DNA of 64,000 nucleotides from Nitrospirota bacterium (lineage in GTDB: Bacteria; Nitrospirota; Thermodesulfovibrionia; Thermodesulfovibrionales; UBA6898), in assembly GCA_016214855.1 (NCBI GenBank), contig JACRMT010000004.1, positions 496,001 to 560,000 of the forward strand, written 5' to 3'. A model generated the notes under the pieces. That model did not search any database, was not told where the DNA came from, and was given only the letters and a program-made list of their open reading frames with translations. The stretch's first letter is position 1, and every line of letters begins with the position of its first letter. Both the position numbers and the translations under genes were made by a program. Shown piece after piece: positions 1,220 to 38,870 of this stretch.

Positions 1220-1260
1220 ATCACGAACGGCTCAAGGCAGATTGATCAACAGCCGGACGG

Positions 1261-2208: not shown

Positions 2209-2225
2209 GTCAGTTTCCCGCATTG

Positions 2226-3742: not shown

Positions 3743-3859
3743 GATCGCTCCGTTCGTCTAAAGAAATGTTATTAAGTATAACAGAACAAACAGCATTTGA
3801 GGCCATTCTGGGTTGGCGAATACAGAACAGTCTTGTTTGGCAGTTTGGATAATTTTCTG

Positions 3860-3916
3860 ATACCCCACCCAACCTCCCCTTGGAAATGGGAGGAGAGATA
3901 ACACTCATAACTGAAG
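3860..3916. repeat. dispersed palindromic repeat, copy 1 (half element)
   Basis: About 57 bp that match 10006-10063 closely, including a palindrome around CTCCCCTTGGAAA and a shared end CTCATAACTGAA. It lies in the 256-bp gap between the TPR gene and the YtxH gene. No gene is visible in the gap. Confidence 0.7.
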
Positions 3917-3998
3917 GGTTACGTATTTAGCAGCTTATGCTGTTGACCACGAGTATGATTAGTGATAGGCTGAAAGAAAAAGAACAGAGGAGGCTACC

Positions 3999-4196
3999 AT
4001 GTTTTACGAAGATGACAATACAGGCCCGGCCATTCTGGTATCGTTTTTTGTCGGCAGCATTGTAGGAGCAGGTCTGGCGCTCCTGTTCGCACCGCAGGCA
4101 GGCAAAAAGACCAGAAGGCAGATCGCCGACCTTGCAGATGATGTCAAGGACTATGCAGCAGACTACACAAAGAAGCTGAAAGACAAGATAGCCTAA
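3999..4196 (+). CDS. YtxH-domain small membrane-anchored protein
   Basis: A 65-residue protein with one N-terminal membrane helix (about residues 11-31, rich in Gly and Ala) and the YtxH signature LLFAPQAGKKTRRQIAD, followed by a charged amphipathic helix. Members of this family are linked to stress responses in Bacillus, but no biochemical role is established. The ATG has a strong AGAGGAGG upstream. It converges with glgB: the two stop codons overlap at 4193-4196. Confidence 0.8.
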   Translation: MFYEDDNTGPAILVSFFVGSIVGAGLALLFAPQAGKKTRRQIADLADDVKDYAADYTKKLKDKIA

Positions 4197-6391: not shown

Positions 6392-6418
6392 GTTTTCTTT
6401 CTTTTAAGATATGCTCCT

Positions 6419-6628
6419 CTAAACCGCCACATACTCCGCAAAGGAATGAGATTCCGGAATCTGCAATTTGTCTTCGATAAGTCCATCAATATGCATTTTC
6501 ACAGCTTCATGCATGTTGCGTTCAACCTCATCTCGTGATAAGCCGGTAGCAACACAACCCGGCAAGTCAGGAGAATATGCAGAATAATTGTTTTCTGCCT
6601 TTTCAATCACGACAAGAAATCTGTGCAT
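6419..6628 (-). CDS. hicB: HicB-family antitoxin
   Basis: A 69-residue protein with the HicB partial RNase-H-like fold: start HRFLVVIEKAENNYSAYSPD, then DLPGCVATGLSRDEVERNMHEA, as in HicB antitoxins. It is expected to bind and block HicA and to repress the operon. The DNA-binding C-terminal extension found in long HicB proteins is absent, so autoregulation may rest on another factor or not occur. Its ATG follows directly on the TAA of hicA with no gap, so translation is coupled. The order toxin first, antitoxin second is the usual hicAB order. Confidence 0.88.
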   Translation of the reverse strand: MHRFLVVIEKAENNYSAYSPDLPGCVATGLSRDEVERNMHEAVKMHIDGLIEDKLQIPESHSFAEYVAV

Positions 6629-6823
6629 TTACTTTGCCTCCTTCAGCTTCGACTGTTTCATGATGCTGTTCAGGGTCCCCGGAGCCAAGTCATCGTTGGG
6701 ATGCCCGGCGATGGTGACTCGTCCCTCTTTGACAGCATGTTTATACTGCCGATGGCTTCCCCTCGTAACCACGAGATACCACCCGTCTGCTTCGATCACT
6801 TTAATAATATCACGCACTTTCAT
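6629..6823 (-). CDS. hicA: HicA-family mRNA interferase toxin
   Basis: A 64-residue protein with the double-stranded-RNA-binding-like HicA fold. The active-site histidine lies in TRGSHRQY, followed by the second strand GRVTIAGHPNDDLAPGTL. HicA toxins cut mRNA when free of HicB. The ATG is preceded by GGAG eight bases upstream. The pair sits with an A+T-richer membrane-protein gene between glgB and ilvN, a likely small acquired cassette. The toxin appears intact, including the catalytic His. Confidence 0.9.
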   Translation of the reverse strand: MKVRDIIKVIEADGWYLVVTRGSHRQYKHAVKEGRVTIAGHPNDDLAPGTLNSIMKQSKLKEAK

Positions 6824-6884
6824 AGATTTGCTCCATATTTATCATTTACCCATCACAATCGCTATCCATAAATTGCACTTTATT

Positions 6885-7325
6885 TCAATTGACTCTTAAG
6901 GATTTATAAATTCTTGTGGCAAGAAGTTGTCCCACAAAAACAAGTGCAAGATTGAAATAAACAAGGAAACGAAGAGACTCGGCATCACCAAAGGTAAACA
7001 GAGCATAGGTTGTAACAAGCGTTATTGGAATCAACATTAATGCCAGTTTCAGGTAGAGCTCTGTTCTTCTTGCGCCTTTCAGAATCAAGTTTGCAAGATA
7101 TATGGCTATAACGATAAAAGGAACAACGTCAATTAACGCCGCAAAAAAAGCACAGACAATGGTCGTATAGCCGCCCCTTGGCAGGTACTTTTGTGACTGC
7201 CAGTAGAAAACTTCTGAGGATATAACGATAGTGAAGCCAATGATGACAGGTAGGAGTAAGACAATCACCCGTAAAAGATTACTGATTTGTTTGTCATTAT
7301 TTGACTGTAATGCCATCATGGTCAT
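6885..7325 (-). CDS. unrecognised four-helix membrane protein
   Basis: A protein of about 146 residues with four hydrophobic segments: LLRVIVLLLPVIIGFTIVIS, a second around FFAALIDVVPFIVIAIYLAN, a third around LALMLIPITLVTTYALFTF and a fourth around VYFNLALVFVGQLLA. I do not recognise the family. The chosen ATG has GAAGG six bases upstream; a longer reading from a TTG at 7385 has no ribosome site. Base composition is visibly A+T-richer than the flanking ilv and glg genes, like hicAB next to it. It might be a membrane partner or passenger of the same acquired segment. Confidence 0.55.
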   Translation of the reverse strand: MTMMALQSNNDKQISNLLRVIVLLLPVIIGFTIVISSEVFYWQSQKYLPRGGYTTIVCAFFAALIDVVPFIVIAIYLANLILKGARRTELYLKLALMLIPITLVTTYALFTFGDAESLRFLVYFNLALVFVGQLLATRIYKSLRVN

Positions 7326-7428
7326 CGGGATGCCTTCAAACTGGTAATGAGTTCCCCTATAGTCTCGCACTGTGAATTTATCCAATTGTATATCATATGG
7401 ACTGTTTCGTCGATATCTGTTTCAGTCA

Positions 7429-7464
7429 ACAAAAAAGCCCTGCGGAATTCTGCAGGGCTTTGAG
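7429..7464 (-). terminator. intrinsic terminator after ilvN
   Basis: A 10-bp perfect stem (AAAGCCCTGC / GCAGGGCTTT, loop of 8) followed on the minus strand by a run of six T. It lies 20 bp past the ilvN stop and ends the ilv run. Confidence 0.9.
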
Positions 7465-7483
7465 CAGGGTATGTCGAAATATA

Positions 7484-7972
7484 TTACGGTTTCTTGACGC
7501 CTTCGCGCGCAATCGCGATCTTGCCGGTGCGGACAAACTCCTTGATGCCCATCGGTCTCAGAAGCTCCACAAAGGCCTCGATCTTCTTTTCTTCACCGGT
7601 AACCTCGATCGTATAGGTCTTGGGGCTTGAATCAACGATCCTGCCCCGAAAGATATCGGCGATCCTGAGCACCTCTGCCTTGTCCTCCTGGCGCGGTGAT
7701 ACCTTGATCATGACCATCTCCCTCTCCACATGGTCGAGTTCGGTCATGTCCACGACCTTGATCACATCGATCAGCTTGTTCAACTGCTTGTTGATCTGCT
7801 CGACGATCCAGTCGTCGCCACTCGTAACGATCGTCATGGTCGATATATTAGGGTCGATCGTTTCGCCAACAGAGAGACTCTCGATGTTATAGCCCCTTCC
7901 GCTGAACAGTCCTGATATCCTCGAAAGGACACCGAATTTATTTTCGACAAGAACAGATATCGTATGTCTCAA
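7484..7972 (-). CDS. ilvN: acetolactate synthase small (regulatory) subunit
   Basis: A 162-residue regulatory subunit of acetohydroxyacid synthase. The N-terminal ACT domain starts [20 protein letters not shown] and contains the valine-binding loop region [16 protein letters not shown]; the second half is the IlvH-type C-terminal domain. It gives the catalytic subunit full activity and valine feedback inhibition. It is the last gene of ilvD-ilvB-ilvN, about 110 bp after ilvB, and is followed by a strong terminator. Length is standard for IlvH/IlvN (about 160). Confidence 0.95.
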
Positions 7973-8085: not shown

Positions 8086-9825
8086 TTATTTTACTGCCTT
8101 GAGTTTCTTCTCAGGCTTCTTCACTTCTTCTTCCCGGAACAGCATCTGGTCAATGGCAGCGCCAGCAGGCACCATCGGATAGACCTTCTCGGTCCAGTCG
8201 ATCACGAAATCCATGATTACCGGCCTCTTGATGGCAAAGGCTTCCTTCAGCACCGGCTCAACCTCTGACTTCTTTGTTGCCCTGAGTCCGACGGCGCTGT
8301 AAGCTTCTGCGATCTTCACAAAATCCGGCACGGTTTCATCAAGCTTGGTATGCGAGTATCGCTCCTGGAAGAAGAGCTCCTGCCACTGACGCACCATGCC
8401 GAGGAAGCGGTTGTTCAGGATCGCGACCTTTACGGGCAGTTTGTTAATGACCGCTGTTGCAAGCTCCTGAATGTTCATCTGAATGCTTCCGTCGCCTGCG
8501 ATATCGATGACCAGCTTGTTCGGAAATGCAAGCTGTGCACCGATTGCTGCCGGCAGACCATAACCCATGGTGCCGAGGCCGCCTGATGACAGCCATGTCC
8601 TTGGCTTGTCATACTTGTAGAACTGTGCTGCCCACATCTGGTTCTGGCCTACCTCTGTTGCGATGATCGCATCGCCTTTGGTCAGCTCGTTGATCTTCTC
8701 AATAACATACTGGGGTTTGATCACATCTGCATCCCGGTCATAGCTCATGGGCCGCTCTTTTTTCCAGGCATCGATCTGTTTTGTCCATGCCTTTCTCACC
8801 TCAGCCCACTGCTCCTTCACCTCGTCATGGATCACCTTGTTCATCACGGTAAGCACACGCTTCACATCACCGACGATCGGCAGGTCAACGCGTACATTCT
8901 TCCGGATTGATGTGGGATCAATATCAATATGAATGATCTTGGCATTCGGCGCAAAGGCATCTATCTTGCCCGTGACCCGGTCATCAAAACGCATGCCGAT
9001 CGCAATCAGAAGGTCTGAATCCTGCACTGCCTTATTCGCATAATAAGTGCCATGCATGCCTAACATGCCTAATGAGAGCTTGTGCGATCCCGGGAACCCG
9101 CCAAGGCCCATCATGGTCATGGTTACCGGCACCCCGGTTATCTCCGCAAATTCTCTCAGTTCCTTTGAGGCATCTGATGAGATGACACCGCCGCCGGCTA
9201 TGATCAAAGGCTTCTTTGCCTTTGCTATCATATGCGAAGCCTGGGTGATCATGTATTTATTGCCTTCATACGTAGGGTTATAGCTTCTGATCTTGACCTG
9301 ATCAGGCCAGTGGAATTCAGCCTTGCTGGTCGTCACGTCTTTTGGCAGGTCTATGAGCACCGGACCGGGCCTGCCAGTACTGGCAATATGAAATGCCTCT
9401 TTTATCGTAAGGGCAAGATCACTGACGTTCTTTACAAGAAAATTATATTTCGTGCAGGGCCTTGTTATGCCGACAATGTCAGCTTCCTGAAAGGCGTCAT
9501 TGCCGATCAACATGGTAGGTACCTGTCCGGTAATGACCACCATCGGGATCGAATCCATGGCAGCGGTCGCAATGCCGGTGACCGTGTTCGTTGCACCCGG
9601 ACCTGAGGTGACCAGCGCCACTCCCACCTTGCCTGTTGCGCGTGCATATCCGTCAGCAGAGTGTACAGCTCCCTGCTCATGGCGCGTTAATATAAGCTGA
9701 AGATCCTTTTCATCATGGAGAAGGTCGAAGATATTCAGCACAACACCTCCCGGATACCCGAACAGGTGTTTAACTCCTTCCTTCTTCAGTGATTCTAAAA
9801 GGATCTCTGAACCAGTCATTTTCAT
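8086..9825 (-). CDS. ilvB: acetolactate synthase large (catalytic) subunit
   Basis: A 579-residue thiamine-diphosphate enzyme that condenses two pyruvates to acetolactate, or pyruvate with 2-oxobutyrate, in valine/leucine/isoleucine synthesis. The catalytic glutamate is in [17 protein letters not shown] (near residue 50), the FAD-binding middle domain is around residues 190-340, and the ThDP/Mg motif is [16 protein letters not shown] Lys-rich tail ends the protein. It lies between ilvD and ilvN on one strand. The 246-bp gap to ilvD holds a palindromic repeat and a hairpin GGTCAGA/TCTGACC (9842-9863) in the ilvB leader, which could influence expression but has no visible T-run. Confidence 0.97.
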
Positions 9826-9943
9826 CTTTCTACCGCTCCCCGGTCAGACTGCCTGCTCTGACCAATTATGAAATTTCGCATATTGTATCACATGCAACCC
9901 TGTTAACTTCAACAAAAACGGGCCTTCCTTCAGCTAAAGTCGG

Positions 9944-10063
9944 TTAGGTCAGAAAGCCCCTCCTTAGCAAGGAGGGGTAATGGGGAGGTTTTGAAAATTG
10001 TATCAATACCCCTCCCGCCCTCCCCTTGGAAAGGGGAGGAGGCACACCCCTCATAACTGAAAG
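9944..10063. repeat. dispersed palindromic repeat, copy 2 (longest form)
   Basis: About 120 bp with two consecutive palindromes: CCCCTCCTTAGCAAGGAGGGG and CTCCCCTTGGAAAGGGGAGG. The right half matches copy 1 at 3860-3916, including the end CTCATAACTGAA. It fills most of the gap between ilvD and ilvB. Confidence 0.75.
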
Positions 10064-10071
10064 ATATTTTT

Positions 10072-11724
10072 TTAACGCACGATGGCGCCTTCATCTGCCG
10101 AGCTCACAAGCTTGGCATAGCGAGAGAGATACCCCTTGGTTATCTTGGGAGACGGCTGTTTCCATGCCTTCAGCCTCTTCTTTATATCCTGATCGCTCAG
10201 TTTCAGCTCTATCTTCCGCTTTGCTATATCAATACTGATCTTGTCGCCATTGCGGACAATGGCAATAGGGCCACCCTCCATCGCCTCAGGCGATACATGG
10301 CCTATACAGGGGCCGCGTGTGCCACCCGAGAATCGACCGTCGGTTATCAGCGCTACGGACTCGCTCAGCCCCATGCCTGAGATCGCAGCAGTGGGTGCGA
10401 GCATCTCCCTCATGCCGGGACCGCCCTTAGGCCCTTCATAGCGGACAATAACAACGTGGCCGGCCTTCACCTTGCCGCCGCGTATAGCGGTCATCGCCGA
10501 CTCTTCAGAATCAAAGACAATTGCAGTGCCTTCGAACTGCATCATGTTTTGACTGACCGCCGACTGCTTTACCACAGCCCCCCCCGGAGCAAGATTGCCT
10601 TTCAGTATCGCAATGCCTCCTTCCTTGTGGTGGGCCTTCTCAATCGGGCGGATCACATCGTCGTCATAGATCTCAGCCTCATCAGCGATCTGGCAGATGG
10701 TCTTTTCGTTCACGGTTATCGTATTGTTCAGCGTCTTTCTGAGCCTTTTGAGCACAGCAGGTATGCCGCCCGCATAATCAAGATCTTCCATATAGTTTTT
10801 CCCGCCGGGAAGCATGTCCGTGATATGCGGCGTCTTCTTTGAAAGCCTGTCAAAGGACTCGAGCGGCAGCTTTAAGCCTGCGTCATGGGCTATGGCAGGT
10901 ATATGCAGCACTGTGTTGGTCGAACCGCCTAATGCAAGATCGACCATGATTGCATTTTCAAAAGACTTCATGGTCATGATCTTCCTGGGCGTGATATTCT
11001 TCTGCACGAGCTCTACGATCCTTTTGCCGCTGTCAAAAGCGATCCTCCGTTTTTTTGAGGATACGGCAAGGGCCGTAGCACATCCCGTAAGGCTCATACC
11101 GATGGCCTCCGTGATGCATGCCATGGTGTTCGCCGTGTACATGCCCTGGCATGAACCTGCGCCCGGGCATGCGCACATCTCAAGGCTGTCCAGTTCGTCC
11201 TTTTTTATAAGCCCCTTCCGGAACTTGCCTACAGCCTCAAACGTGTCGCTCGTAAGATTCAGCCGCCTGCCCTTGTAGTGGCCGGAGAACATGGGGCCTG
11301 CGGTCACTACGATACAGGGGATATTCAGCCTGCCTGCTGCCATGAGCATGCCGGGCGTGATCTTGTCGCAGTTCGTCAGGAGCACAAGCCCGTCAAGCTG
11401 GTGAGCAGAGGCAACCGTCTCTACCATATCGGCGATCAGCTCGCGCGATGCAAGGGAGTAATGCATGCCGCTATGGCCCATGGCGATGCCGTCACAGATG
11501 CCGGGGATGCCGAAGAAAAAAGGATACCCTCCGCCGGTATGGACTCCCTTTTCAATGAACCGTTCAAGGTCCCTCATGCCGGTATGGCCGGCGATCAGAT
11601 CGGTAAAACTTGTGGCAACGCCGATGAACGGCTTGCCCATCTCTGATTTGGATATGCCTGTGGCATACAGCAGCGCCCGGTGAGGAACACGGTCAATGCC
11701 TTTTTTGATAATATCGCTTTTCAT
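10072..11724 (-). CDS. ilvD: dihydroxy-acid dehydratase
   Basis: A 550-residue Fe-S enzyme that removes water from dihydroxy-isovalerate and dihydroxy-methylvalerate to give the 2-oxo acids of valine and isoleucine synthesis. Cluster cysteines are seen in TNCDKITPG (C119) and in [17 protein letters not shown] (C184-C192). The length matches the short archaeal/anaerobe-type IlvD (about 550) rather than the 615-residue E. coli form. The ATG at 11724 has AGGTGG upstream; an in-frame GTG three codons earlier is less likely because it overlaps that site. It is the first gene of the ilvDBN run. Confidence 0.96.
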
Positions 11725-21214: not shown

Positions 21215-22309
21215 TCAGTCTTGATATCCTTCGAATATCCGGTTGAACTCATCGGCCGCATCTCGGAAGGCGGCGTGTATCTTCGGATCAAAATGCTCGG
21301 GCCTGGTCCGGCCGTCGCCTTTTATGATAATGTCACAGGTCTGCTCATGGCTGAAGGGGACCTTGTACGGCCGCTTGGACCGCAGAGAGTCATACTGGTC
21401 AACAATATTCATGATCCTTCCAATAACAGGGATATCCTCACCCTTCAGCCCCCGGGGATAACCGGTCCCGTCCCATCGCTCATGATGCGTGAGGGCCACC
21501 ACCTCTGCAGCAGCAAGGAATTCTGATGATGAATTGCTCAGTATTCGGGCGCCTATGGTCGTGTGCGATTTGATGATCTCGAACTCCTCGGACGTCAGTT
21601 TCCCGGGCTTCAGAAGAATATTGTCGGGAATCCCGATCTTGCCGATATCGTGCATGGGACCTGCATAAAAGATGGTCTCACAGAACACTTCCGACTGTCC
21701 TATATTCTCAGCCAGAACCTTGCAGTAGTAACTTATGCGCTTGATATGCGTGGCCGTATCCTCGTCCTTGAATTCGGCAGCAAGCGTAAGCCGGTAGATG
21801 GTCTCGATGTAGCTGCTCTTGATCTCCTGGTGGGCGGCCTCAATATCATCCATCGCGATCTGAAGCTCATAGGTCCTCTTCCTGACCTCCTGCTCAAGCA
21901 CCTGGTTATGCCTTATTACAAAGTCCTCGTATTCCTTGATCCTGAGGAGATTCTTGACCCTCAGGATCAGTTCTATCCTGTCGATCGGCTTGGTCAGAAA
22001 CTCGTTTGCAGAGACCTCAAGACCCCGGAGTTTCGACTCCCTGTCGCTCAGAGCCGAGACGATCACCACCGGGGTATTCGCCGATTCAGGGTCGCTCTTG
22101 ATCAGACTGCAGGCCTCGTAACCATCCATATCGGGCATCATGATATCGAGCAGCACCAGGTCCGGGGAACCGGCCTTCACCTTCTCGACCGCCTCCCTGC
22201 CGTTTGAGGCTGTCTCGGTCTCATATCCCTCTGCCCGCAACAGGGAACTGAGCAGTTTGACATTCTGCTCTTCGTCATCGACCACCAGGATCTTCTTCTT
22301 ATCCGCCAT
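21215..22309 (-). CDS. response regulator with HD-GYP domain (c-di-GMP phosphodiesterase)
   Basis: A 364-residue RpfG-like protein. A receiver domain (residues 1-125, phospho-acceptor Asp in LVLLDIMMPDMDG, Lys in FLTKPIDR) is followed by a coiled-coil linker and an HD-GYP domain (about 165-345) with HDIGKIGIPD and HHERWDGTGYPRGLKGEDIP, both diagnostic. HD-GYP enzymes linearise c-di-GMP. It lies 53 bp after a histidine kinase gene and 2 bp before hemH. All catalytic motifs are intact, unlike those of the neighbouring kinase. Confidence 0.93.
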   Translation of the reverse strand: MADKKKILVVDDEEQNVKLLSSLLRAEGYETETASNGREAVEKVKAGSPDLVLLDIMMPDMDGYEACSLIKSDPESANTPVVIVSALSDRESKLRGLEVSANEFLTKPIDRIELILRVKNLLRIKEYEDFVIRHNQVLEQEVRKRTYELQIAMDDIEAAHQEIKSSYIETIYRLTLAAEFKDEDTATHIKRISYYCKVLAENIGQSEVFCETIFYAGPMHDIGKIGIPDNILLKPGKLTSEEFEIIKSHTTIGARILSNSSSEFLAAAEVVALTHHERWDGTGYPRGLKGEDIPVIGRIMNIVDQYDSLRSKRPYKVPFSHEQTCDIIIKGDGRTRPEHFDPKIHAAFRDAADEFNRIFEGYQD

Positions 22310-22362
22310 GGACCATACCTTCCTTTATACCGCAGTTCCGTGGTTTCTCTAAGCCTACCATG

Positions 22363-24519
22363 TCACGGCCGCTCTGGCAATACGAAAATAAACCGGTTGC
22401 CTTCAGACGATCCGCCAGTCTCCGATGCCGGCGGCAGACCCTCGGCCCATATCCTGCCCCCATGAATATCCACATACCGTTTGCTCAGCAGCAACGCCAC
22501 ATTCTCCTGCTTCCTGTCGAGCACAGCATCAAACTCTTTGTAAGGATCAAAAAACCGCGAACGTTCTTCGTTGGTCAGGCCCGGTCTTGAATCCGTGATC
22601 GTTACCTGTATGCAGTCCGGTTCAGAACAGACCTGGTCTTTGTCAGGAGCACCTTCGATGTCGTCGGAACCGGACAACCCTGCACTGTGACAGGGCACCT
22701 TTGCCGTCTCTATCAGGATCGTCCCGCTGTCAGGCGTTGCGTTTATGGCATCCGTAAGCAGGCTGACAATTACCTGTTTGATCTTGTTCTCGTCGATGGT
22801 CAATGATCGGGTATCTGCAGCAATCTGCACGGTTATGCCGATCCGGTGTTTCTTAGCCTTCTCCCGGAAGATATAGAGGGCATTGTTAAGTATATCGCTG
22901 ATATTGCATTCAGAGTAATCAAGTTCCAGACTGCCCGTCTCGATCTTGCTGAGATCCAGCACCTCATTGATAAGCTTCAGGAGTTTTATGCCGCTCTGGT
23001 AAATATATCCAAGGTATTCCTTATGGTCCTCCCTAATCTCGCCGTATATCCCCTGTGACATGGCCTCAGAAAAACCGATGATGGCATTCAAAGGAGTTCT
23101 CAGATCATGGGACATATTGGCAAGAAAGGACGACTTTGCCATGTTTGCGCTTTCGGCCAGCAGCAGGGCATCCTGCAGCTTCTCGGTCCTCTCTTCCACC
23201 TTGGCTTCAAGGTCCTTCAGCAGGATGACATTTTCTATGACCGAGGCCGCATGGCTGGCAAATATTTGACAGAGATCTGACATATTGGCAGTAAAGTGGT
23301 CTTTCTGTTCGCTGTAAAAAACCATCTCGCCGATCACTGCGCAGTTCGCGCAGATCAGGGGTTGGACCATGCAGGACCGGTAACCCTGCTTGAGAGCCGC
23401 CTCGATCCCCGGCAGGGAAGTATCGGCAATCTCCATATCATTGATGATCTGAGGCAGATTCGTCTTGATCGCTGTTCCCTCAGGTCCCATGCCGTATGCT
23501 GAACCGTCCCAGGTAACTCTGATGCGCTCGAGATATCCATCGTCAAGTCCTGCGTGGGCAGCAATCCCGACATTACGGTTCCCTGCATTCAGCAGACCGA
23601 TCCATGCCGCCCTGAGTCCGAAAAGCTCACGGGCATTCTCGCAGATGGCCTTATACAGGTCTTCCTCTCTTTGCAGGCCGACAAACGTGTTCATGGCCCT
23701 GTTCAGGGCCATGACGTCCTCCGTGTGCCAGGAGACCTCTCCAAACGCAGCTGCGATCTCTTCCGACATGCGGTTAAAGGCCTGGCCGAGCTCCCCGATC
23801 TCGTCAGCCGTCGCTACCTCCACATGCACGTCATATCGCCCGGCTTCTATCTGCTTCGCAGCGTTGCGCAGGGATCTGAGAGGCCCGGCAATGCTATGCC
23901 GGACAAATAAAATGACAAACCCGGACGCGGCAATAAAAAACATATAGACAAACAGCCTGACCACTTCGAATTTCTTTATCTCTTGATGATGGTCGTCGTT
24001 CAGGTGAGTAAGGAGCTTTTCCACCTTTCCCGCGAAAATAGCAAGCCCCTTATCAAAAGGGGCCAATACACGTCTTGCGTCGTCTTCCGCAGCATCAGGA
24101 GGAAGATCGGCAACTGCAGCGAGGGCTGGTCTCATGGTCCCTGACCATTGAGCAACAATGTCCGAAAACAGCACCACGGCCTCTTTATGTATGAGCCTCT
24201 CAAGACCTTCCTGGCGGTTGCCTTCCCTGATGTCGTTCAGTATCCGGTCAAACATCCCGATCTCACGGCGAAGGCGGGCAGACAGACCACTCCTCGCCGC
24301 TTCATCCATCTTCTCCACTCCCCTCTCGACCGCTCTTTGGGCGAGCCAGGCCATCTCATAGGAACGGAACCTGAGCTGCGAAGCGAAATTGATCCTGACA
24401 GCCTCACTGCCAAGGCGGCGCACCGTAGAAAGATCGGCATATAAATATAAGCCGAGGATGGATAAAAAAAGCATGCAGATAAAGATGATCTTATGTGTTA
24501 TGGACGTGAAAAAAGTCAT
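22363..24519 (-). CDS. membrane histidine kinase-like protein with degenerate ATPase domain
   Basis: A protein of about 718 residues: membrane helix (8-32), periplasmic sensor region of about 160 residues, second helix (about 190-210), HAMP, GAF (about 285-440, with NAGNRNVGIAAHAG and a Cys-containing MVQPLICANCAVIGEMV), coiled coil, and a HisKA domain with intact SHDLRTPLNAIIG. The ATPase domain is eroded: N-box VSLLTDAINAT has Asp for the Mg-binding Asn, the G1 box reads DSRPGL, and the G2 box reads NVALLLSKRYV without the GxGLGL glycines. It may be a pseudokinase or only a phosphatase. The start is uncertain: ATG 24519, with GTG at 24534 and 24552 as alternatives. Confidence 0.85.
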   Translation of the reverse strand: MTFFTSITHKIIFICMLFLSILGLYLYADLSTVRRLGSEAVRINFASQLRFRSYEMAWLAQRAVERGVEKMDEAARSGLSARLRREIGMFDRILNDIREGNRQEGLERLIHKEAVVLFSDIVAQWSGTMRPALAAVADLPPDAAEDDARRVLAPFDKGLAIFAGKVEKLLTHLNDDHHQEIKKFEVVRLFVYMFFIAASGFVILFVRHSIAGPLRSLRNAAKQIEAGRYDVHVEVATADEIGELGQAFNRMSEEIAAAFGEVSWHTEDVMALNRAMNTFVGLQREEDLYKAICENARELFGLRAAWIGLLNAGNRNVGIAAHAGLDDGYLERIRVTWDGSAYGMGPEGTAIKTNLPQIINDMEIADTSLPGIEAALKQGYRSCMVQPLICANCAVIGEMVFYSEQKDHFTANMSDLCQIFASHAASVIENVILLKDLEAKVEERTEKLQDALLLAESANMAKSSFLANMSHDLRTPLNAIIGFSEAMSQGIYGEIREDHKEYLGYIYQSGIKLLKLINEVLDLSKIETGSLELDYSECNISDILNNALYIFREKAKKHRIGITVQIAADTRSLTIDENKIKQVIVSLLTDAINATPDSGTILIETAKVPCHSAGLSGSDDIEGAPDKDQVCSEPDCIQVTITDSRPGLTNEERSRFFDPYKEFDAVLDRKQENVALLLSKRYVDIHGGRIWAEGLPPASETGGSSEGNRFIFVLPERP

Positions 24520-24604
24520 GGTGTATCTTATCACAAATAATCCGTGCAGCACAGGCAGGGAGCCGCTTCTATCTCAGCATGTCCTTGACGGGTGCCGCAG
24601 GTTT

Positions 24605-26125
24605 TCAGAGGCTGTATCGCTCGTAAATTTCCTGAAGCCTGGGGGCCGCTGTCCTGAATGCCGTAAGTACCCTGGGATCAAAGTGGCAAGGCAGGGTCCT
24701 GTTGTCCCCTTCGATGATGATTCTGCATGAAGTGTCGTGATCAAAGGCAGGTCGATATATCTTCTGCCTCCTCAGCGAGTCATACTGGTCTACAATGTTC
24801 AGGATCCTTCCCTCAATCGGGATGCGCTCTTCCTTCAGGCAGTAGGGATAGCCGGAGCCGTCCCATCGTTCATGATGGGTCAGGGCAATGTTCCTGCCGA
24901 TCTGAAAACCCTTATACTGACCCAGGATCTGCGCACCGTAGAGCGTGTGGTTCTTTATTTCGCCAAACTCGGCGTCTGTCAGCACAGCAGGTTTCCGGAG
25001 GATGGCAGCAGGAATATAAACATTCCCGATGTCGTGGAGTTGGGACTGAAACCGGATGGCCTTGATGAACCCTTCATGCATTTTGAGGTCCTGTGCAAGC
25101 AGGGAGGCGTAATCTCCAATCCTCACGATATGCGCATCGCCATCCTCGTCACCGGCTTCTGAAACCTTGACCAGCGTACGCACGATATGCTCCAGCGCAT
25201 CGTCACTGTCCGTGAGCCTCTGCAGAACGGCCTGAAGAAGAATTCCCTGTGAGGCCAGGCTCTGCATGACCCGGGCGTCATATTTCGTTGCCGTCCTCCT
25301 GTAGTTCACGGCTATGACTGAAAAGGCGCGGCTTATATAGCCTGCCACCGTCGTAACCGCTATATTCATACCGCCCAGCTCTTCGATGAGCGGGCTGAAA
25401 AGCGACTGCCTGATCTCTTCCTCTCCGGTGCAAAAGAGGCTTTTCCCTTCAACTTCAGGAAGGTCCAGACTCCAGCCCACATCAGTCGCAAGAAGCGTCC
25501 TCTTGAGTGCTCCGTCCGAAAAATAATAATATAACCATTTCCGCCTGCCCTTATCGAGAACTCCTGTCAAAACGATCTCAGGAGAAACACCTGATTCTTC
25601 CCCCTGTCCGAAGACCTTGCTGACAAGCCGGTCAAAACCGGAAAGAAGATCGGGATGGCAGGATTCAACCGCATGAATGACCTCATGCCCGAAGGACGCC
25701 ATCGCGGCCATCGTTGCGTCCGCAACGCACAGTTCTTCCTGCAGATCCAGCAGCCTCAGCATGGTCTTTACCCTGGATGCGATTTCAGTCAAATGGAAGG
25801 GCTTCATGATAAAATCATCAGCTCCTGCCCCCAGTCCTCTTTGCCTGTCCTGATACGCCGCAAGGCCTGATACCATGATAATGGGAATACCTGCAATATC
25901 TTCGTCCCCCCTGATCTGCCTGCATACCTCAAGGCCGTTCATCTGCGGCATGAGCACATCCAGAATAACAAGATCGATCTTCTGTGCGTGCAGGAGGTTC
26001 AGAGCGGTCTTGCCGTCCTCTGCAATGACCACGTCATATCCCTCATAAATCAGGATTTCCCGAAACAGGGCGAGATTCACCGGTTGATCGTCAACACACA
26101 ATATCCTCCTTTTTGCCGTCAGCAT
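24605..26125 (-). CDS. response regulator with GAF-like and HD-GYP domains
   Basis: A 506-residue protein. Residues 1-125 form a receiver domain (Asp in LVILDVLMPQMNG, Lys in DFIMKPFHLTE). The middle region (about 150-300) looks GAF-like, with a core such as KGRRKWLYYYFSDGALKRTL. Residues about 315-500 form an HD-GYP domain with QLHDIGNVYIPAAIL and HHERWDGSGYPYCLKEERIP. The first motif has HDIGN where HDIGK is usual, a conservative change near the metal site. It should degrade c-di-GMP under phosphorylation control. It lies 22 bp after the LuxI-like gene. Confidence 0.9.
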   Translation of the reverse strand: MLTAKRRILCVDDQPVNLALFREILIYEGYDVVIAEDGKTALNLLHAQKIDLVILDVLMPQMNGLEVCRQIRGDEDIAGIPIIMVSGLAAYQDRQRGLGAGADDFIMKPFHLTEIASRVKTMLRLLDLQEELCVADATMAAMASFGHEVIHAVESCHPDLLSGFDRLVSKVFGQGEESGVSPEIVLTGVLDKGRRKWLYYYFSDGALKRTLLATDVGWSLDLPEVEGKSLFCTGEEEIRQSLFSPLIEELGGMNIAVTTVAGYISRAFSVIAVNYRRTATKYDARVMQSLASQGILLQAVLQRLTDSDDALEHIVRTLVKVSEAGDEDGDAHIVRIGDYASLLAQDLKMHEGFIKAIRFQSQLHDIGNVYIPAAILRKPAVLTDAEFGEIKNHTLYGAQILGQYKGFQIGRNIALTHHERWDGSGYPYCLKEERIPIEGRILNIVDQYDSLRRQKIYRPAFDHDTSCRIIIEGDNRTLPCHFDPRVLTAFRTAAPRLQEIYERYSL

Positions 26126-26147: not shown

Positions 26148-26768
26148 TCAAGCCTGCAGGTCCGACTGCAGATTCGTCATCTCATAGAGCATGGGCCGTT
26201 CTTTCCTGAGCGTTGCCGCCAGTGTTGCGAGATTCGTAATACCCGGGATGGTCTTTGAACCCATGTAGAATTTCGGCTCCCCTATCTGGTGGAAGCGGAT
26301 CCCGAGGAGCCTGAGAAGACGGAAAAACCGGTGGTCAGCCGAAACATACGCATGGCTTGCTCCCATGCGCATGAGAGTGCCCAGGATGCTCATGCAGAGC
26401 ATGAGTGTTATCTCATGGTTTTGCGAGCCGGCCGCCCCAGGCACAATAAACCGGGATATCTCAACAGCATAGTGGAGCTCACCGTGACTCGTGGTAATAT
26501 GCTTCCTGGGATAGAGCTCGAAATGTCTTTCTATCGGCAGCAATATACTGCCCGGCAGGATGATGCGGGATGTACCGACCGCAATACCGGACTCGTCCAG
26601 AGCAAGGAACGGCATACTCTGTCCTTCATCGTAATCGTCCTTTTCTTCAGGCACAGCATAATCGCCCGTGGAAAGCCAGCCGAGCTCCTGGCACATGATA
26701 TCAAACCTGAGCTGATAACTCTGCTGCTTCTCTTTCTCGTTCCCCGCCAAGATTACCTTCACCGCCAT
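26148..26768 (-). CDS. LuxI-like / FeeM-like acyltransferase (candidate autoinducer synthase)
   Basis: A 206-residue GNAT-fold protein that matches the acyl-homoserine lactone synthase pattern: R21 and W31 in LRFDIMCQELGW, then E42, D44 and D47 in EEKDDYDEGQ, R68 in VGTSRIIL, E103 and R106 in VEISRFIV. Of the eight residues conserved in EsaI/LuxI, seven are in place; the Phe at R+4 is Met25. Such enzymes use acyl-ACP or acyl-CoA and S-adenosylmethionine. PEP-CTERM-associated acyltransferases and N-acyl amino acid synthases share the pattern and are the main alternatives. The ATG has GGAAGG upstream and lies 68 bp inside the end of the acyl-activating enzyme gene. No exosortase gene is near. 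Confidence 0.75.
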   Translation of the reverse strand: MAVKVILAGNEKEKQQSYQLRFDIMCQELGWLSTGDYAVPEEKDDYDEGQSMPFLALDESGIAVGTSRIILPGSILLPIERHFELYPRKHITTSHGELHYAVEISRFIVPGAAGSQNHEITLMLCMSILGTLMRMGASHAYVSADHRFFRLLRLLGIRFHQIGEPKFYMGSKTIPGITNLATLAATLRKERPMLYEMTNLQSDLQA

Positions 26769-28020
26769 ATCGCACCTTCCTTTCATAATCAAGAGGATAG
26801 GGAAACAGTTCAAAGGGGCAGAGCTCAGCCTGTATGGGAAGCCTCCGGAAGGCGTCGATGCAGGCCTGCTCTGCGGCATGACTTATGCCACAGTCCTCTT
26901 TCATCTGGATTTTCAGAGAAACGCCGCTCCCGGCGACTTCAATCACAAAGCTGCCCGTTGACATTGAAGCAAGCTCATGAGATGCATAGAGCAGTTCCTT
27001 TACCTCTTCAACATGAAGACCCAGCACCTGCACCCCCCTTCCAAAGTGTGCAAGGATTGCAGATCCTTTTTCCGGAGCAAGGCCGCGATACCCCGCAGCC
27101 TTCAGGCTGCGATTGACCTGTTCGATGGACAATATCCTACCCCTGTCCCCGCAGCGGCACCTGAGAAGCGGGAGGATTCTGTCAGGATCGACTGTGGTCA
27201 GGAGGATCGCTTCGAACGCATTGCCGGGTTCCCTGATCGTCTCGACGAAGATCTTGCTTTCATCGAACGCAAACAGCATCGGACAGAAACCCGTATCCCC
27301 GAAGATGGTCTGCAGCAGGTTCCGGTCCTGGAACAGGAGGTTGCGCAGCAGTACGGTTTCCTCGGTCTCATAGAAATAATGCAGACCGAGTTCAGCCATG
27401 CCCATGGACGAGAAGACGCGCCTGCAGCCGACAATGCCTTCGATATAGGTCCTGTAGCTTTCAGGCACCCATTCTCCGCCGACCATGATGAAGAGAGGCA
27501 GGTGTTCCCAGGAAACAGCGTGCTGCACCCCGTATTCAATGAGGTTTTTTATGAAGAGCGGCTCGCCGACAAGGATGATCTGCTCAAAGCTGCTTCCAAG
27601 GGACTGTATCATTGATACAGCGGTATCCATGCGCACACCTATGGAGGCAACCGTTGCCGTAGTCGACCAGAGCGACAGAGCACCAGGCAGCAGGTTGAGA
27701 ATAAGAGTTTTCTTTTTCTTTGTGCTGAACCTGTCCTGGAGGAATGCCTCAATGGCAAGAGACGACTTTCTCATCTCCGCGTCGCTGAAGAGTCCGTATG
27801 AGAAGTCCGTGCCGGTTGAGCCTGAACTGGGCACGATGCTCCTGACCTTGAACAAGGGCACCGAATGGATAGCCTGTGCGATAAATGCCCTGCCGGTGAC
27901 AGGGAGCTCGTCAAGGCTCCTGATCTTGAGGGGGTCTATCCCTTTGGCCTCAACATATTTGCGGTACGCCGGCCATTTCTTGATCGATCTTTTTACCTGG
28001 AGAATCGCTTCATGATCCAT
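26701..28020 (-). CDS. PaaK/LuxE-like acyl-adenylate-forming enzyme
   Basis: A 439-residue member of the phenylacetate-CoA ligase / acyl-protein synthetase branch of the AMP-forming superfamily. The ATP loop is SSGSTG at residues 65-70, the second core motif is SMGMAELG at 205-212, and GDRG lies near residue 300. Such enzymes activate a carboxylic acid as the adenylate and pass it to CoA or a protein. Next to a LuxI-like acyltransferase the simplest idea is that it supplies the acyl donor. ATG 28020 is used because GAAGGG lies five bases upstream. A GC-rich gap of about 140 bp separates it from the upstream regulator. Confidence 0.8.
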   Translation of the reverse strand: MDHEAILQVKRSIKKWPAYRKYVEAKGIDPLKIRSLDELPVTGRAFIAQAIHSVPLFKVRSIVPSSGSTGTDFSYGLFSDAEMRKSSLAIEAFLQDRFSTKKKKTLILNLLPGALSLWSTTATVASIGVRMDTAVSMIQSLGSSFEQIILVGEPLFIKNLIEYGVQHAVSWEHLPLFIMVGGEWVPESYRTYIEGIVGCRRVFSSMGMAELGLHYFYETEETVLLRNLLFQDRNLLQTIFGDTGFCPMLFAFDESKIFVETIREPGNAFEAILLTTVDPDRILPLLRCRCGDRGRILSIEQVNRSLKAAGYRGLAPEKGSAILAHFGRGVQVLGLHVEEVKELLYASHELASMSTGSFVIEVAGSGVSLKIQMKEDCGISHAAEQACIDAFRRLPIQAELCPFELFPYPLDYERKVRYGGEGNLGGEREREAAELSAQV

Positions 28021-28030
28021 TTGCACCCTT

Positions 28031-28060: not shown

Positions 28061-28159
28061 TTAGGTTATAGAATGCAGTTGAGAATTATTACCCCCCGAT
28101 GGGGGAGAGGGCTGATAAAAGCGGGGTAATGCATCCCCCACCCGGAGGAGACAGGAACT

Positions 28160-28756
28160 TTATTGCTTTCTCAACTCCTTTATGACGGCCGAGACAAGCG
28201 ACGTTCTGTTGTTCACACCGAACTTTCCGAAGATGTTTTCAAGATGCTGCTTGGCTGTAGAGGCCTTGACCGAAAGCCGTTCTGCGAGTTCCCGTGTCTC
28301 GGCAATGCCGTCTTCAACCATGAGTCTGAGCAGTTCTTCCTCTTTCTTTGTCAGTCCGAGGGACATGAGTCTTGCCCAGTTCAAGGGAACACTCTTCCTG
28401 GCCTCAATGGCCTTTTTGACCGCACGCAGGATCTCCTCTGTTTTGAAGGGTTTGGTAAAGTAATCCACCACGCCCTTCTTCACTGCGTCAATCGCGCTGT
28501 CAGCGCTCGGATAGGCAGTGATGACAATGACGGATGTTTCAGGGCAGTGTTCTGAAACATAGCGTACCAATTCTCTGCCTCCCTGGACAGGCATGATGAG
28601 GTCAGTAATGACCACGTCAAACCTCTGCCTTTTAAGGAGTTCGACAGCCTCTGCGCTCGTCCGTGCAGACAGGGTCGCATACCCTGAACTGCTCAGGATA
28701 AAGGTGAGGTTCCTCCTCAGAATATCTTCGTCTTCTGCAATAAGAATGTCAGCCAT
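28160..28756 (-). CDS. response regulator with LuxR-type DNA-binding domain
   Basis: A 198-residue two-domain regulator. The receiver domain has the acidic pair AEDED, the phospho-acceptor D52 in VVITDLIMP and a Lys in YFTKPFKTEE. The C-terminal GerE/LuxR helix-turn-helix spans about 135-195, with LTKKEEELLRLMVEDG and LSVKASTAKQHLENIFGKF. It has no autoinducer-binding domain, so it would respond to the kinase, not to a lactone directly. The ATG has AAGGAT upstream and overlaps the kinase stop by 8 bp, which makes the pair a clear two-component system. Confidence 0.92.
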   Translation of the reverse strand: MADILIAEDEDILRRNLTFILSSSGYATLSARTSAEAVELLKRQRFDVVITDLIMPVQGGRELVRYVSEHCPETSVIVITAYPSADSAIDAVKKGVVDYFTKPFKTEEILRAVKKAIEARKSVPLNWARLMSLGLTKKEEELLRLMVEDGIAETRELAERLSVKASTAKQHLENIFGKFGVNNRTSLVSAVIKELRKQ

Positions 28757-30599
28757 GGAAATCCTTTGGAAAGGATACCATAACAGAGGTGCCTTTTCCG
28801 GCCTCACTCTGCAACCGCATGTCGCCTCCGTATTTTTTCGCGATCTCCCTGCAGATCGTCAGTCCCAGGCCCGCTCCTTCAGGCTTCGATGTCTGGAACG
28901 GTGCAAAGATCCTGTTCATTCGCCCCTCTGGTATTCCGCATCCTGTATCGCTCACCTTCAAACTGACAATATCATCCCTCTCCCCTGTGCTGATCACAAC
29001 CTGTTTCCTGGCAGATGAAAGCATGGCATCCTCCGCGTTCTTGATGAGGTTCAGCAGGATCTGCTTGATATGGCCGGGGTAGCAGGCTATCGGGGAGAGG
29101 TTCGGATAAAGCTCGGGGGTAATTGATATACCCTTGCCCTTGAGCCTCCTCTGGGTCATATGGATAATCTTTATGATCTCCGTATTCATGTCAACGGCCT
29201 GGATAACGGAATCATCCGCCCGGTACACCTCGAGGATACCCTTTACGATCCCGGACATCCTTTCTATCTCCTCATGAACATCCTTGAGCACATCCTGCCT
29301 GTATTCGCGGTCCACGCGTATATTGTTCAGGATATAGAGGGCAGTCTCGATATTTGCGAGCGAATTATTGATCTCATGGGCTATCTCGGCAGCAACCATG
29401 CCCTTTGCTGCAAACCGCTCTGCCTCGATGAGCCTGCCGGCCATCTCGCGCTCCAGGGTGATGTCCCTTGCAATGAGCATGAGGCCGGTGACGCGGCCGT
29501 TATCTCTCACCGGCGTAGAGTTGATCGAAAGGATGAGGCGGCCGCCGTCCCTTTTCTTCATGACAACTTCAACGACCGTGGGATCGCCTGCAAGGCTTTC
29601 CCTGAGCCTGGCTGCAGCCGCATCACGTCCCGCATCATCAATCAGGGAAAAAATGTGCTGCCCTATGACCTCGTCATGGCCATATCCGGAAAGTTCGATC
29701 CCCTTCTTGTTCAGGGCGGTTATTCTGCCTCCTGCATCAACAAAACATATGATGTCGCTCGCATTCTCCATAAGGTCACGGTATTTTTCCCCGGACGCCC
29801 GCAGGTCCTCATAAGCGTTCTGGAGCTTCGCATGATTCTCCTCGAGGTGAACAAGGGCATCTTCGAGCGCCTCCCTGCGGCCTGCTGTTCCCCGCCTGAT
29901 CCTGAATGGCCTGGTCTCCCAGGTCAGGCGGTATAAGCAGCTCTCTGCGCCAAACACCGTATCGTTCAGTCTGAACGTCCCGGTATCCGACACCGAGCCT
30001 ATGACATGCTGTGCGCAGCCGCATTCTGATTCAAGGACATGCCCCTGTACGTCAAGCGCATAGACCCTGTCATGATATCTCCCGAGTTCCTGCACCGGCA
30101 CTACGCACTGCACCTCTGCAACCGCTGTTTCGCCCTGGCCGAAGAGTTCTGAGGCAAGGCTGAACATGCCCTGGTTGAACAGGCACGCGCCCCGTGTCTG
30201 CCTGCCCTTCACCCTCAGTTCCACAAGAGCACTGTTCTTTGTCGTTTCCCTGACCGTTATCTGCACGATATCTTTCGTAAAATAGCGCGCGATCTTCGGG
30301 GCATACCGCACGAGCCGTTCAGGAGTAACAAAGAGATTAAAGAGGATGTTGACAATGCCAAGAGATTTGAGCGATACCACGCTCCTGCCGATATGAAAGA
30401 GGACCCGCTCATCGTCGAAGAGTTCCACAAGGCGGTTTTCAAGGACGCGCTCGATATCCCAGGGGATCCAGTTATCCGGGTTGGCAAGGTAAGGCCCGTC
30501 ATATGGAAGTCCCTTCAGAAGGGGCTCCAATAATTCCTGCCTCGTATTCTTTATATAGGTCAGAAATGCAGCTGTGATCCTGCAGCTCACTTCATGCAT
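28749..30599 (-). CDS. soluble PAS sensor histidine kinase with unrecognised N-terminal sensor module
   Basis: A 616-residue kinase with no membrane helix. Residues 1 to about 235 form a module I cannot name; it starts with a region containing GLPYDGPYLANPDNWIPWD and includes cysteines (GACLFNQG, ESECGCAQH, AESCLYRLTW) that could bind a metal, cluster or heme. A coiled coil leads to a PAS domain (about 270-395), then HisKA-like IAHEINNSLANIETAL with phospho-acceptor His, and a complete ATPase domain: LLNLIKNAEDAM, DTGCGIPEG, GAGLGLTICREI. It is coupled to the LuxR-type regulator downstream and begins 61 bp after hemE. Confidence 0.88.
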   Translation of the reverse strand: MHEVSCRITAAFLTYIKNTRQELLEPLLKGLPYDGPYLANPDNWIPWDIERVLENRLVELFDDERVLFHIGRSVVSLKSLGIVNILFNLFVTPERLVRYAPKIARYFTKDIVQITVRETTKNSALVELRVKGRQTRGACLFNQGMFSLASELFGQGETAVAEVQCVVPVQELGRYHDRVYALDVQGHVLESECGCAQHVIGSVSDTGTFRLNDTVFGAESCLYRLTWETRPFRIRRGTAGRREALEDALVHLEENHAKLQNAYEDLRASGEKYRDLMENASDIICFVDAGGRITALNKKGIELSGYGHDEVIGQHIFSLIDDAGRDAAAARLRESLAGDPTVVEVVMKKRDGGRLILSINSTPVRDNGRVTGLMLIARDITLEREMAGRLIEAERFAAKGMVAAEIAHEINNSLANIETALYILNNIRVDREYRQDVLKDVHEEIERMSGIVKGILEVYRADDSVIQAVDMNTEIIKIIHMTQRRLKGKGISITPELYPNLSPIACYPGHIKQILLNLIKNAEDAMLSSARKQVVISTGERDDIVSLKVSDTGCGIPEGRMNRIFAPFQTSKPEGAGLGLTICREIAKKYGGDMRLQSEAGKGTSVMVSFPKDFHG

Positions 30600-34567: not shown

Positions 34568-35110
34568 TTGAAGATGATCGCCCACCATACCATTGCCGGC
34601 AAGACCCTGCGACTGATCCAGGGTGACATTACGCATCGGGATGTCGATGCTATTGTCAACGCTGCCAACTCCTCTTTGCAGCATGGCGGAGGAGTAGCAG
34701 GTGCAATCGTGCGCAAAGGCGGTCAGGTCATTCAGGACGAAAGCAACAAGATCGCCCCGGTGGCTGTAGGACATGCTGCAATAACAGGCGCAGGCAGGCT
34801 GCCGGCAAAGTTCGTTATTCATGCGGTTGGGCCAATGATGGGAGAAGGGGATGAGGACAGCAAGCTGAAAAATGCCATCATGAACAGTCTCAAGCTTGCC
34901 TCGGAAAATAAACTTTCGAGCATATCCTTTCCTGCCATAAGCGCAGGCATCTTCGGTTTTCCCAAAGGCAAGTGTGCAAAGCTGCTCATAGGGGAGGCAG
35001 TGACCTTCCTGAAAAAACATAAAGAGAGCAGTCTGGCGGATGTAGAATTCTGCATCTACGACGATGAGACTCTCGATCATTTCAAAAAGGAATTTGATAA
35101 GCTGAAATAG
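34568..35110 (+). CDS. macrodomain protein (ADP-ribose / O-acetyl-ADP-ribose hydrolase type)
   Basis: A 180-residue single macrodomain. The ADP-ribose site shows GDITHRDVDAIVNAANSSLQ with the catalytic-loop Asn and Asp, then HGGGVAGAIVRKGG and SFPAISAGIFGFPKGKCAK (diphosphate loop). Such enzymes remove O-acetyl or protein-linked ADP-ribose. The start is a TTG eight bases after AAGGAG; an ATG two codons later would have longer spacing. It is on the opposite strand to most of the window, facing away from hflX. It opens the accessory region. Confidence 0.92.
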   Translation: MKMIAHHTIAGKTLRLIQGDITHRDVDAIVNAANSSLQHGGGVAGAIVRKGGQVIQDESNKIAPVAVGHAAITGAGRLPAKFVIHAVGPMMGEGDEDSKLKNAIMNSLKLASENKLSSISFPAISAGIFGFPKGKCAKLLIGEAVTFLKKHKESSLADVEFCIYDDETLDHFKKEFDKLK

Positions 35111-37765: not shown

Positions 37766-38870
37766 TTGACTCCTGCATAAATAATGTCCTATACTTTGGG
37801 CAGGAGGTGAGAGATGAGACCTCAGGGAAGCCCAAAGGAATTGGAACAAAGACGGCAACGTGCCATTGCTCTGCTTCAGGAAGGATACCAGCCTGTTGAT
37901 GTAGCCGGCATGCTTGGAGTAGAACGCCGAAGCGTGCGGCGCTGGAAGGCAACACATCGCAAAAAAGGTGAAAAAGGCATTCAAGCCAAGCAAGCATCGG
38001 GGAGACCATCCAAACTTAACAGCAAAGATTTTCGAAAACTTGAGAAGTCGTTGCTTAAGGGATCGAAGAAGGCCGGATTTCCGACAGACCTCTGGACCTG
38101 TCCTCGGATTGCACAGCTTATCCAGTCTCTTTTTGGCGTTAACTACCATGTGGATCATATTGGCCGTATACTCCATGATCTTGGGTGGTCGCCCCAGAAA
38201 CCGGAACGCCGGGCCATAGAGCGCAACGAAGCAAGAATCAAAGAATGGATAAAGGTTGACTGGCCACACATTAAAAAAAAGCTGCCAGACTGAAAGCGCA
38301 TATCGTCTTTATCGACGAAAGCGGCATGATGATGGCACCTCTGGTCAGGAGAACCTGGAGTCCTCGTGGTCAAACTCCCATCCTGTACCAAAAAACCTGT
38401 TCTCATAAGAAAGTCTCTGTTATCGGCGCCCTCTGCATTGCACCTCGTAAAAATCAGCTCAGCATGTATTTTCGACTTCATCCAGATGTCAACATCGCAT
38501 CTGACGCCGTCAAGGCCTTTCTTCGCTGTCTTCTGAAGGAACTGCCAGGACAGATCATTATCGTATGGGATCGTTTTCAGCCTCATCGTTCAAAAAAGGT
38601 GCAGAGCCTGCTGGCTATCAGGCCACAGCGTCTGCATTTCGATTACTTTCCTCCCTATGCGCCAGAGCTTAACCCTGTAGAATATGTCTGGGCTCATACA
38701 AAAATGAATCCCATGGCGAATGCCACAGCAATGGAGTTGGATACCCTTGCAACTGGCACTCGCAGCAGTATGCGCTCATTACAGAAAAAACAGCACCTGC
38801 TCCGTGCATTCATCAAAAAAAGTGGACTTTCTTTACGTCTCAAATAGGACATTACTTATGCAGCTATCAA
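37766..38870 (+). mobile_element. IS630-family insertion sequence, complete
   Basis: Element of 1105 bp bounded by TA dinucleotides (37764-37765 and 38871-38872), the target duplicated by IS630/Tc1-type elements. Terminal inverted repeats are imperfect over about 24 bp: TTGACTCCTGCATAAATAAT on the left and, reversed, TTGATAGCTGCATAAGTAAT on the right, both followed by GTCC. It contains one transposase gene read through a frameshift. Confidence 0.9.
37814..38847 (+). CDS. IS630-family transposase, two frames joined by -1 frameshift
   Basis: The first frame (37814-38293) gives 159 residues with helix-turn-helix domains (YQPVDVAGMLGVERRSVRRW and a second around PRIAQLIQSLFGV). The second frame carries the DDE catalytic domain: FIDESG, IIVWDRFQPH and PELNPVEYVW. 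A run of eight A (38273-38280) just before the first stop permits a -1 slip that joins them into a protein of about 344 residues, a known expression mode in the IS630 family. All three catalytic acids are present, so the element may be active. A sequencing error in the A-run is the alternative. Confidence 0.85.

Follow-up and report, generated by a model that had tools for sequence, protein, structure and literature searches.

A conserved four-gene cassette of Nitrospirota, with a LuxI-like acyltransferase, an overlapping ligase gene and a V4R-type sensor kinase, as a candidate signalling system without LuxR

In the window, by which we mean the whole stretch of 64,000 nucleotides analysed here, a gene for a LuxI-like protein begins inside a gene for an acid-activating enzyme. 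This raises the question of what such a pair makes and what perceives the product. A previous sequence-only reading suggested that the pair could be a dedicated maker of an acyl or aryl signal from a free acid. The ligase and the N-acyltransferase do form a conserved unit, but that reading missed that they belong to a four-gene cassette which also holds a histidine kinase and a response regulator.

The acyltransferase and its relatives

The predicted LuxI-superfamily N-acyltransferase (206 aa; 26148..26768, reverse strand) was assigned from PF00765, a TIGR03694 match below the cut-off, its position in the tree and its residues. Its frame begins at ATG 26768, which is 68 bp within the 3' end of the ligase gene and in a different frame from it; the open reading frames of the window bear out the length and the overlap described before. 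The sequence-only reading proposed a search with PF00765 (Autoind_synth), and the window protein passed its gathering cut-off of 24 bits with 36.8 bits (E 3.7e-9), as did four other cassette proteins with 36.9-48 bits. The best named model for the window protein was TIGR03694 (PEP-CTERM acyltransferase) with 91.4 bits, and four other cassettes gave 84-108 bits; all five are below the cut-off of 111.95 bits, whereas the four PEP-type proteins scored reached 124-179 bits. With the FeeM model PF21926 (cut-off 27) the cassette proteins L015, L014 and L013 obtained 37, 27.4 and 26.2 bits respectively, and neither the window protein nor L002 was matched.

Regarding the residues, seven of the eight LuxI/EsaI signature residues in near-standard spacing had been counted earlier, and this was right in substance: R21, W31, E42, D44, D47, R68, E103 and R106, that is eight residues, are present, and the position of F28 is occupied by Met. 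F28 contacts the substrate in AHL synthases. Met is found there in all six aligned cassettes and in those added later, so the full LuxI residue set is incomplete in them; the same position is Phe in 21 of 21 LuxI/TraI rows and Tyr in 11 of 11 PEP-type rows. Because every cassette has this Met, the acceptor may not be SAM. Apart from this change, sequence comparison indicates that the SAM-side residues are retained. R21, E42, D44, D47, R68, E103 and R106 are common to cassette, LuxI/TraI and PEP-type proteins. W31, E103-x-S-R106-F107 and D145-x-R147-F148 make the cassettes LuxI/TraI-like, whereas the PEP type has Y/F, SRL and other residues at these places; P78 and Y168, on the other hand, are as in the PEP type. 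The whole pattern leans towards SAM as the acceptor, though it is not the canonical one. AlphaFold models of this protein and of the kinase sensor, built from three-sequence alignments, had a pLDDT of 46.

In a maximum-likelihood tree the cassette acyltransferases formed a clade of their own (support 99/96), which was recovered with 98/95 when the tree was re-run with nine cassette members and the long branches removed. The PEP-type proteins formed a separate clade that excludes the cassette (99/98, and 100/99 in the re-run). The branch that sets the cassette and PEP-type proteins apart from the LuxR-linked LuxI and TraI proteins had a support of 99/97 (99/96 in the re-run) in this unrooted tree. 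Judged by these sequences, the cassette clade is placed between the PEP-CTERM-associated acyltransferases and LuxR-linked LuxI. A chance GNAT match as the source of the LuxI call was ruled out by the conservation and the tree.

The sequence-only reading had named the PEP-CTERM/exosortase acyltransferases as the family that could undo its interpretation. This concern proved partly justified, since TIGR03694 is the best named model, but the scores stay below the cut-off and the PEP clade leaves the cassette out. As for an exosortase elsewhere in the genome, the window's genome has only a weak partial match of 41 bits and no exosortase was found in four of the six carrier genomes tested; carrier G335 has a strong one. 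The tree, the mixed residues and this exosortase pattern together set the cassette enzyme apart both from PEP-CTERM members and from canonical LuxI. G335 and G386 carry a further, lower-scoring LuxI-profile relative elsewhere in the genome. We also observed that in G298 (contig 95, 5876-8650) a related PaaK-like ligase (262 bits) comes directly after a tandem pair of genuine TIGR03694 acyltransferases; a MacAB-TolC-like exporter lies beside them, and the exosortase of this genome is strong. A link to such ligases exists on the PEP-CTERM side too.

Ligase, cassette and genomic site

The overlapping gene (26701..28026, reverse strand) is predicted to encode a PaaK/LuxE-like AMP-forming acid-activating ligase, on the grounds of matches below cut-off, motifs and profile alignment. 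Its likely start is ATG 28020 (439 aa), GTG 28026 (441 aa) being the alternative. The Pfam scan of the window ligase gave no match. The NCBIfam matches, all below their cut-offs, were to the DVU1553-family CoA ligase (E 1.3e-6, 28 bits against 300), to LuxE (E 7.5e-6, 25 bits against 550) and to PaaK. The protein has a P-loop PSSGSTG, an A5-like GMAELG, an A7-like PLLRCRCGDRG and a C-terminal YERKVRY, and its profile alignment to solved PaaK structures spans the P-loop and the A5/A7 regions. Intact ligases with a paired LuxI keep the P-loop, A5 and A7 motifs, and also the C-terminal Lys as judged by inspection only.

The pair of the window is the second half of a conserved cassette in the order V4R-type sensor histidine kinase, FixJ/NarL-type response regulator, ligase and LuxI-like enzyme. 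The sequence-only reading had suggested a survey of whether the two enzyme genes co-occur elsewhere, and indeed they do: we counted ten ligase-LuxI pairs among Nitrospirota genomes, with the kinase and the regulator upstream in all nine that have visible upstream sequence. The four-gene order is thus kept in nine loci, from several families and two orders. The two enzyme genes overlap by 62 or 68 bp in nine of the ten pairs and by 23 bp in L015. The pairwise identity matrices of the four proteins correlate with r 0.89-0.97, to which species history may contribute.

Among 396 Nitrospirota genomes, six reached 315 bits or more with the LuxI profile; a truncated remnant in G324 gave 179 bits and everything else at most 105 bits. 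The ligase profile gave 667-809 bits in exactly the six LuxI carriers; G298 followed with 262 and G213 with 78, and the others did not exceed about 30. Searching 230 genomes of the class yielded a further four ligases with high scores (G456, G408, G446 and G444) and one ligase at a contig edge (G447). Across both searches, 640-809 bits were reached only by carriers and by the LuxI-less copy L137; the next-highest score was 262, in two genomes of which one is a contig-edge carrier, and then at most 78. The same overlapping pair in ten genomes and the bimodal scores of both profiles argue against a chance pairing. Beyond Nitrospirota, breadth was assessed by one pattern-based scan of genome contigs. 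Neither the sensor nor the LuxI-like protein had a match in the scans of viral contigs; the plasmid searches gave no cassette relative, with no match for the LuxI-like protein and one distant match for the ligase.

Some loci depart from the complete arrangement. L137 (G444, 2913-6913) has kinase, regulator and ligase with no adjoining LuxI, and its ligase no longer matches GMAELG, and in L051 (G324, 7416-7823) a truncated LuxI alone remains; both are apparently decaying cassettes, judging from their gene content. In G213 (L092, 8186-11991) a distant ligase relative (78 bits) has as its neighbour a LuxR-like regulator in which a GerE domain but no autoinducer-binding domain was recognised. By sequence reading, the cassette of L015 (G041, 248-4627 and 8203-10419) is near compact Cas9, Cas1 and Cas2 genes.

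Within the genus of the window the cassette occurs in this genome only, next to hemE. Four genus-mates show the empty site, with hemH next to hemE. In two others, and probably in a third that is cut by the contig end, a second kinase comes after hemE, and the two complete cases continue with an HD-GYP regulator and then hemH. The block of kinase (HK1), regulator (RR1), ligase, LuxI-like gene and a receiver-HD-GYP gene between hemE and the second kinase is, within the genus, unique to this genome, and DNA similarity to the relatives ends at the hemE stop codon. This break and the patchy distribution indicate, at the level of sequence comparison, that the cassette was gained horizontally. No insertion-sequence marks or target duplications were seen by eye at the hemE boundary. 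The possibility that the pair is a fragment of a hem operon was discarded by the empty-site comparison. In two congeners, G050 and G039, the same neighbourhood holds either the cassette (L013, 7605-11983) or a canonical LuxR/LuxI (L018, 7636-9061).

Two-component proteins and HD-GYP enzymes had been reported around the pair, and the domain scan agrees. The receiver and HD-GYP protein of 506 aa (24605..26125, reverse strand) lies 22 bp after the LuxI-like gene, is part of the genome-specific insertion and is missing from the same site in relatives; such a gene directly follows the cassette in L134 also. These two cases suggest an output through c-di-GMP, and the protein is possibly the output of the cassette, acting by c-di-GMP degradation if its predicted domains are a guide. 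Further on, 21215-24552 holds the second kinase and receiver-HD-GYP pair, which is inserted between the two hem genes in some members of the genus; this kinase is 52-53% identical between species and the flanking genes 76-96%. Sequence reading of the window also gave an IS630-like transposase split across two frames (37814-38847) and a macro-domain-like protein (34568-35110).

Two-component pair and candidate operator

The sensor histidine kinase HK1 (616 aa; 28749..30599, reverse strand) is composed of a V4R-like sensor, PAS, HisKA and HATPase_c. The sensor region comprises residues 1-235 (29895..30599, reverse strand) and is V4R-like in its C-terminal half, with a zinc-type motif C139-x22-E162-x2-C165 followed by C221. 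The C-x22-E-x2-C spacing is exact in the ten kinases examined, one of them from the LuxI-less copy L137, and is also present in the V4R proteins aligned for comparison. Matches of PF02830 (V4R) to the sensor were weak, 12.3-16.6 bits in three of those scanned, below the cut-off of 31. An hhalign comparison of the sensor with V4R proteins scored 32.6 (E 7e-4), the best of 150 column shuffles being 21.6. The PDB profile search with the sensor returned chance matches only. The response regulator RR1 (28160..28807, reverse strand; likely start ATG 28756) has a receiver and a GerE/FixJ-type HTH, and from that start it overlaps HK1 by 8 bp.

That no receptor with an autoinducer-binding domain lies close to the pair was a correct observation, and it extends further: PF03472 is found neither near the pair nor anywhere in the window's genome, and in none of the six carrier genomes tested. 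PF03472 proteins are present in two relatives having LuxI/LuxR pairs. By its domains and linkage, the kinase and regulator pair is the natural receptor candidate for a signal of the cassette. Phenols are ligands of the V4R domains of MopR, DmpR and PoxR, and PcrS, a V4R-PAS kinase, senses p-cresol (PMC10715001). The V4R/XylR_N sensors whose ligands are known respond to aromatic substrates and not to quorum signals (PMC10715001), which counts against a signalling role. Furthermore, in two genomes (L089, L090) the kinase and the regulator occur without ligase and LuxI, so the pair can serve other uses or be an eavesdropper. Among the variants, the L015 kinase bears an extra N-terminal XRE helix-turn-helix (PF01381), and L091 and L093, from family f23, hold V4R-type PAS kinases that are more distant, about 670 aa long and complete in the motif C-x22-E-x2-C-x7-C; a receiver-domain protein is their partner.

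Upstream of the ligase (28093..28149, reverse strand) there are two imperfect palindromes, TCCTCC-GGGT-GGGGGA (28134-28149) and CCCCC-ATC-GGGGG (28093-28105), about 42 bp apart. In orthologous gaps between regulator and ligase the two are 40-44 bp apart (36.5 bp in L015), with a consensus near ATCCTCY-N4-RGAGGAT. For six loci the combined P was 2e-5, which is post hoc because the pairs were noticed by eye and then scored, and the window alone had a P of 0.31; four loci added later gave a combined P of 0.0085, L137 alone not being significant. In L135 the best-scoring pair differs from the operator-like one. A stricter motif pair was restricted to the regulator-ligase gap in four loci. We regard the paired palindromes, from their position and spacing, as a candidate operator of the cassette.

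Possible functions and comparison with known systems

We give about even chances to the reading of the locus as a horizontally spread cassette that produces a chemical signal and also perceives it, with no LuxR involved. The ligase would convert a free carboxylic acid, of either aryl or fatty acyl type, through an adenylate into a CoA or carrier thioester. The LuxI-like enzyme would then pass the acyl group on. With the amino group of SAM as the acceptor, the product would be an acyl- or aryl-homoserine lactone; the alternative acceptor is an amino acid. The V4R-type kinase may bind the product or the acid and phosphorylate the FixJ/NarL-type regulator, which would act on the palindrome pair upstream of the ligase, so that signal synthesis rises. 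The product, the use of SAM and the ligand are inferred. In favour of signalling are the gene order and overlap, profile scores, correlated identities, empty sites, absence of PF03472, LuxI-type residues, V4R motif, palindromes and the site where one congener has the cassette and another a LuxR/LuxI pair; against it are the Met at F28, TIGR03694 as the nearest model and the kinase-regulator pairs without LuxI in L089, L090 and L137. The wider claim of a new quorum-sensing class, in which a LuxI-superfamily synthase with an overlapping ligase gene is served by a V4R kinase and FixJ regulator in place of LuxR and is mobile among Nitrospirota, is one that we make tentatively and with somewhat less confidence.

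The cassette could instead be a substrate-inducible conjugation system, the kinase sensing an aromatic or fatty acid and the regulator inducing the two enzymes, which join this acid to an amino acid for detoxification or storage, with no signal between cells. V4R-type sensors, including the V4R-PAS kinase PcrS, do sense phenolic substrates and control catabolic genes (PMC10715001), and both the Met at F28 and the TIGR03694 affinity are compatible with an amino-acid acceptor. Nevertheless, the cassette clade keeps the LuxI-type W31, SRF and DxRF, one neighbourhood carries the cassette in the first of two congeners and a LuxR/LuxI pair in the second, and no transport or degradation genes are conserved alongside the cassette; we consider conjugation rather unlikely.

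It seems to us unlikely as well, and slightly more so, that the enzyme is a divergent N-acyl amino acid synthase of the PEP-CTERM/exosortase-associated (FeeM-like) kind which acquired a ligase and makes a membrane or surface lipid. Such an enzyme would fit TIGR03694 as best named model, the tree branch shared with the PEP type (99/97) and G298, where two genuine TIGR03694 proteins directly precede a related ligase and the exosortase is strong. However, all five cassette proteins scored fall short of the TIGR03694 cut-off, the clades are separate (99/96 and 99/98), exosortase is absent in four of six carriers and partial here, and G335 and G386 have their additional relative elsewhere. Finally, an ordinary AHL system whose LuxR-type receptor is unlinked or escaped recognition, the kinase and regulator only timing signal synthesis, is improbable: it would agree with the pairs lacking biosynthetic genes in L089 and L090, but PF03472 was found in none of six carriers and the kinase and regulator precede every ligase-LuxI pair where this can be seen.

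If the signalling reading is true, LuxI-type signals can be read by two-component systems besides LuxR, and the acid of the signal is activated by a dedicated enzyme within the same operon. The largely uncultured Nitrospirota would have a compact signalling module, and surveys that seek only LuxR partners, or trust the PEP-CTERM acyltransferase label, would miss such systems. We found no report of the arrangement in the open-access literature searched; subscription journals fall largely outside this coverage.

Among known systems, the CoA-dependent aryl-HSL LuxI subgroup (RpaI, BjaI and the phenylacetyl-HSL synthase of Prosthecomicrobium hirschii) has a LuxI-superfamily synthase, as the cassette does. 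These enzymes use a thioester made by a ligase from the free acid, p-coumaroyl-CoA ligase in the case of RpaI, and in the parts consulted of that source such ligases are not described as coupled genes (PMC10470506). The cassette differs from this group in the overlap of ligase and synthase genes, the linked kinase and regulator and the Met at F28, and from LuxI/LuxR in that no LuxR autoinducer-binding protein was found in six carriers. The receptor of the three-gene AHL circuit of Mesorhizobium japonicum is LuxR-type. This circuit has a dedicated substrate-tailoring gene beside the LuxI gene, like the cassette, although its tailoring enzyme is of the crotonase family and that of the cassette a ligase (PMC10470506).

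LuxM/LuxN, AinS/AinR and the archaeal FilI/FilR couple acyl-type signals to histidine kinases, as proposed here. To our knowledge, the LuxM, AinS and Fil synthases are outside the LuxI superfamily and their kinases have no V4R sensors. LuxN and FilI belong to two-component acyl-HSL systems (PMC8895600, PMC3991700), and the parts consulted of a review of two-component quorum sensing name no LuxI-paired kinase (PMC8895600). TIGR03694 and FeeM, the nearest family model, have the GNAT core and part of the signature in common with the cassette, which is nevertheless below the TIGR03694 cut-off, in its own clade, mostly without exosortase and LuxI-like in W31 and SRF. As for the XylR_N/V4R phenol sensors (MopR, DmpR, PoxR, PcrS), HK1 has the zinc-motif spacing of the V4R proteins aligned here, and PcrS has the same V4R-PAS-kinase order (PMC10715001); however, these sensors sense catabolic substrates, and the N-terminal half of the HK1 sensor is not recognised as XylR_N.
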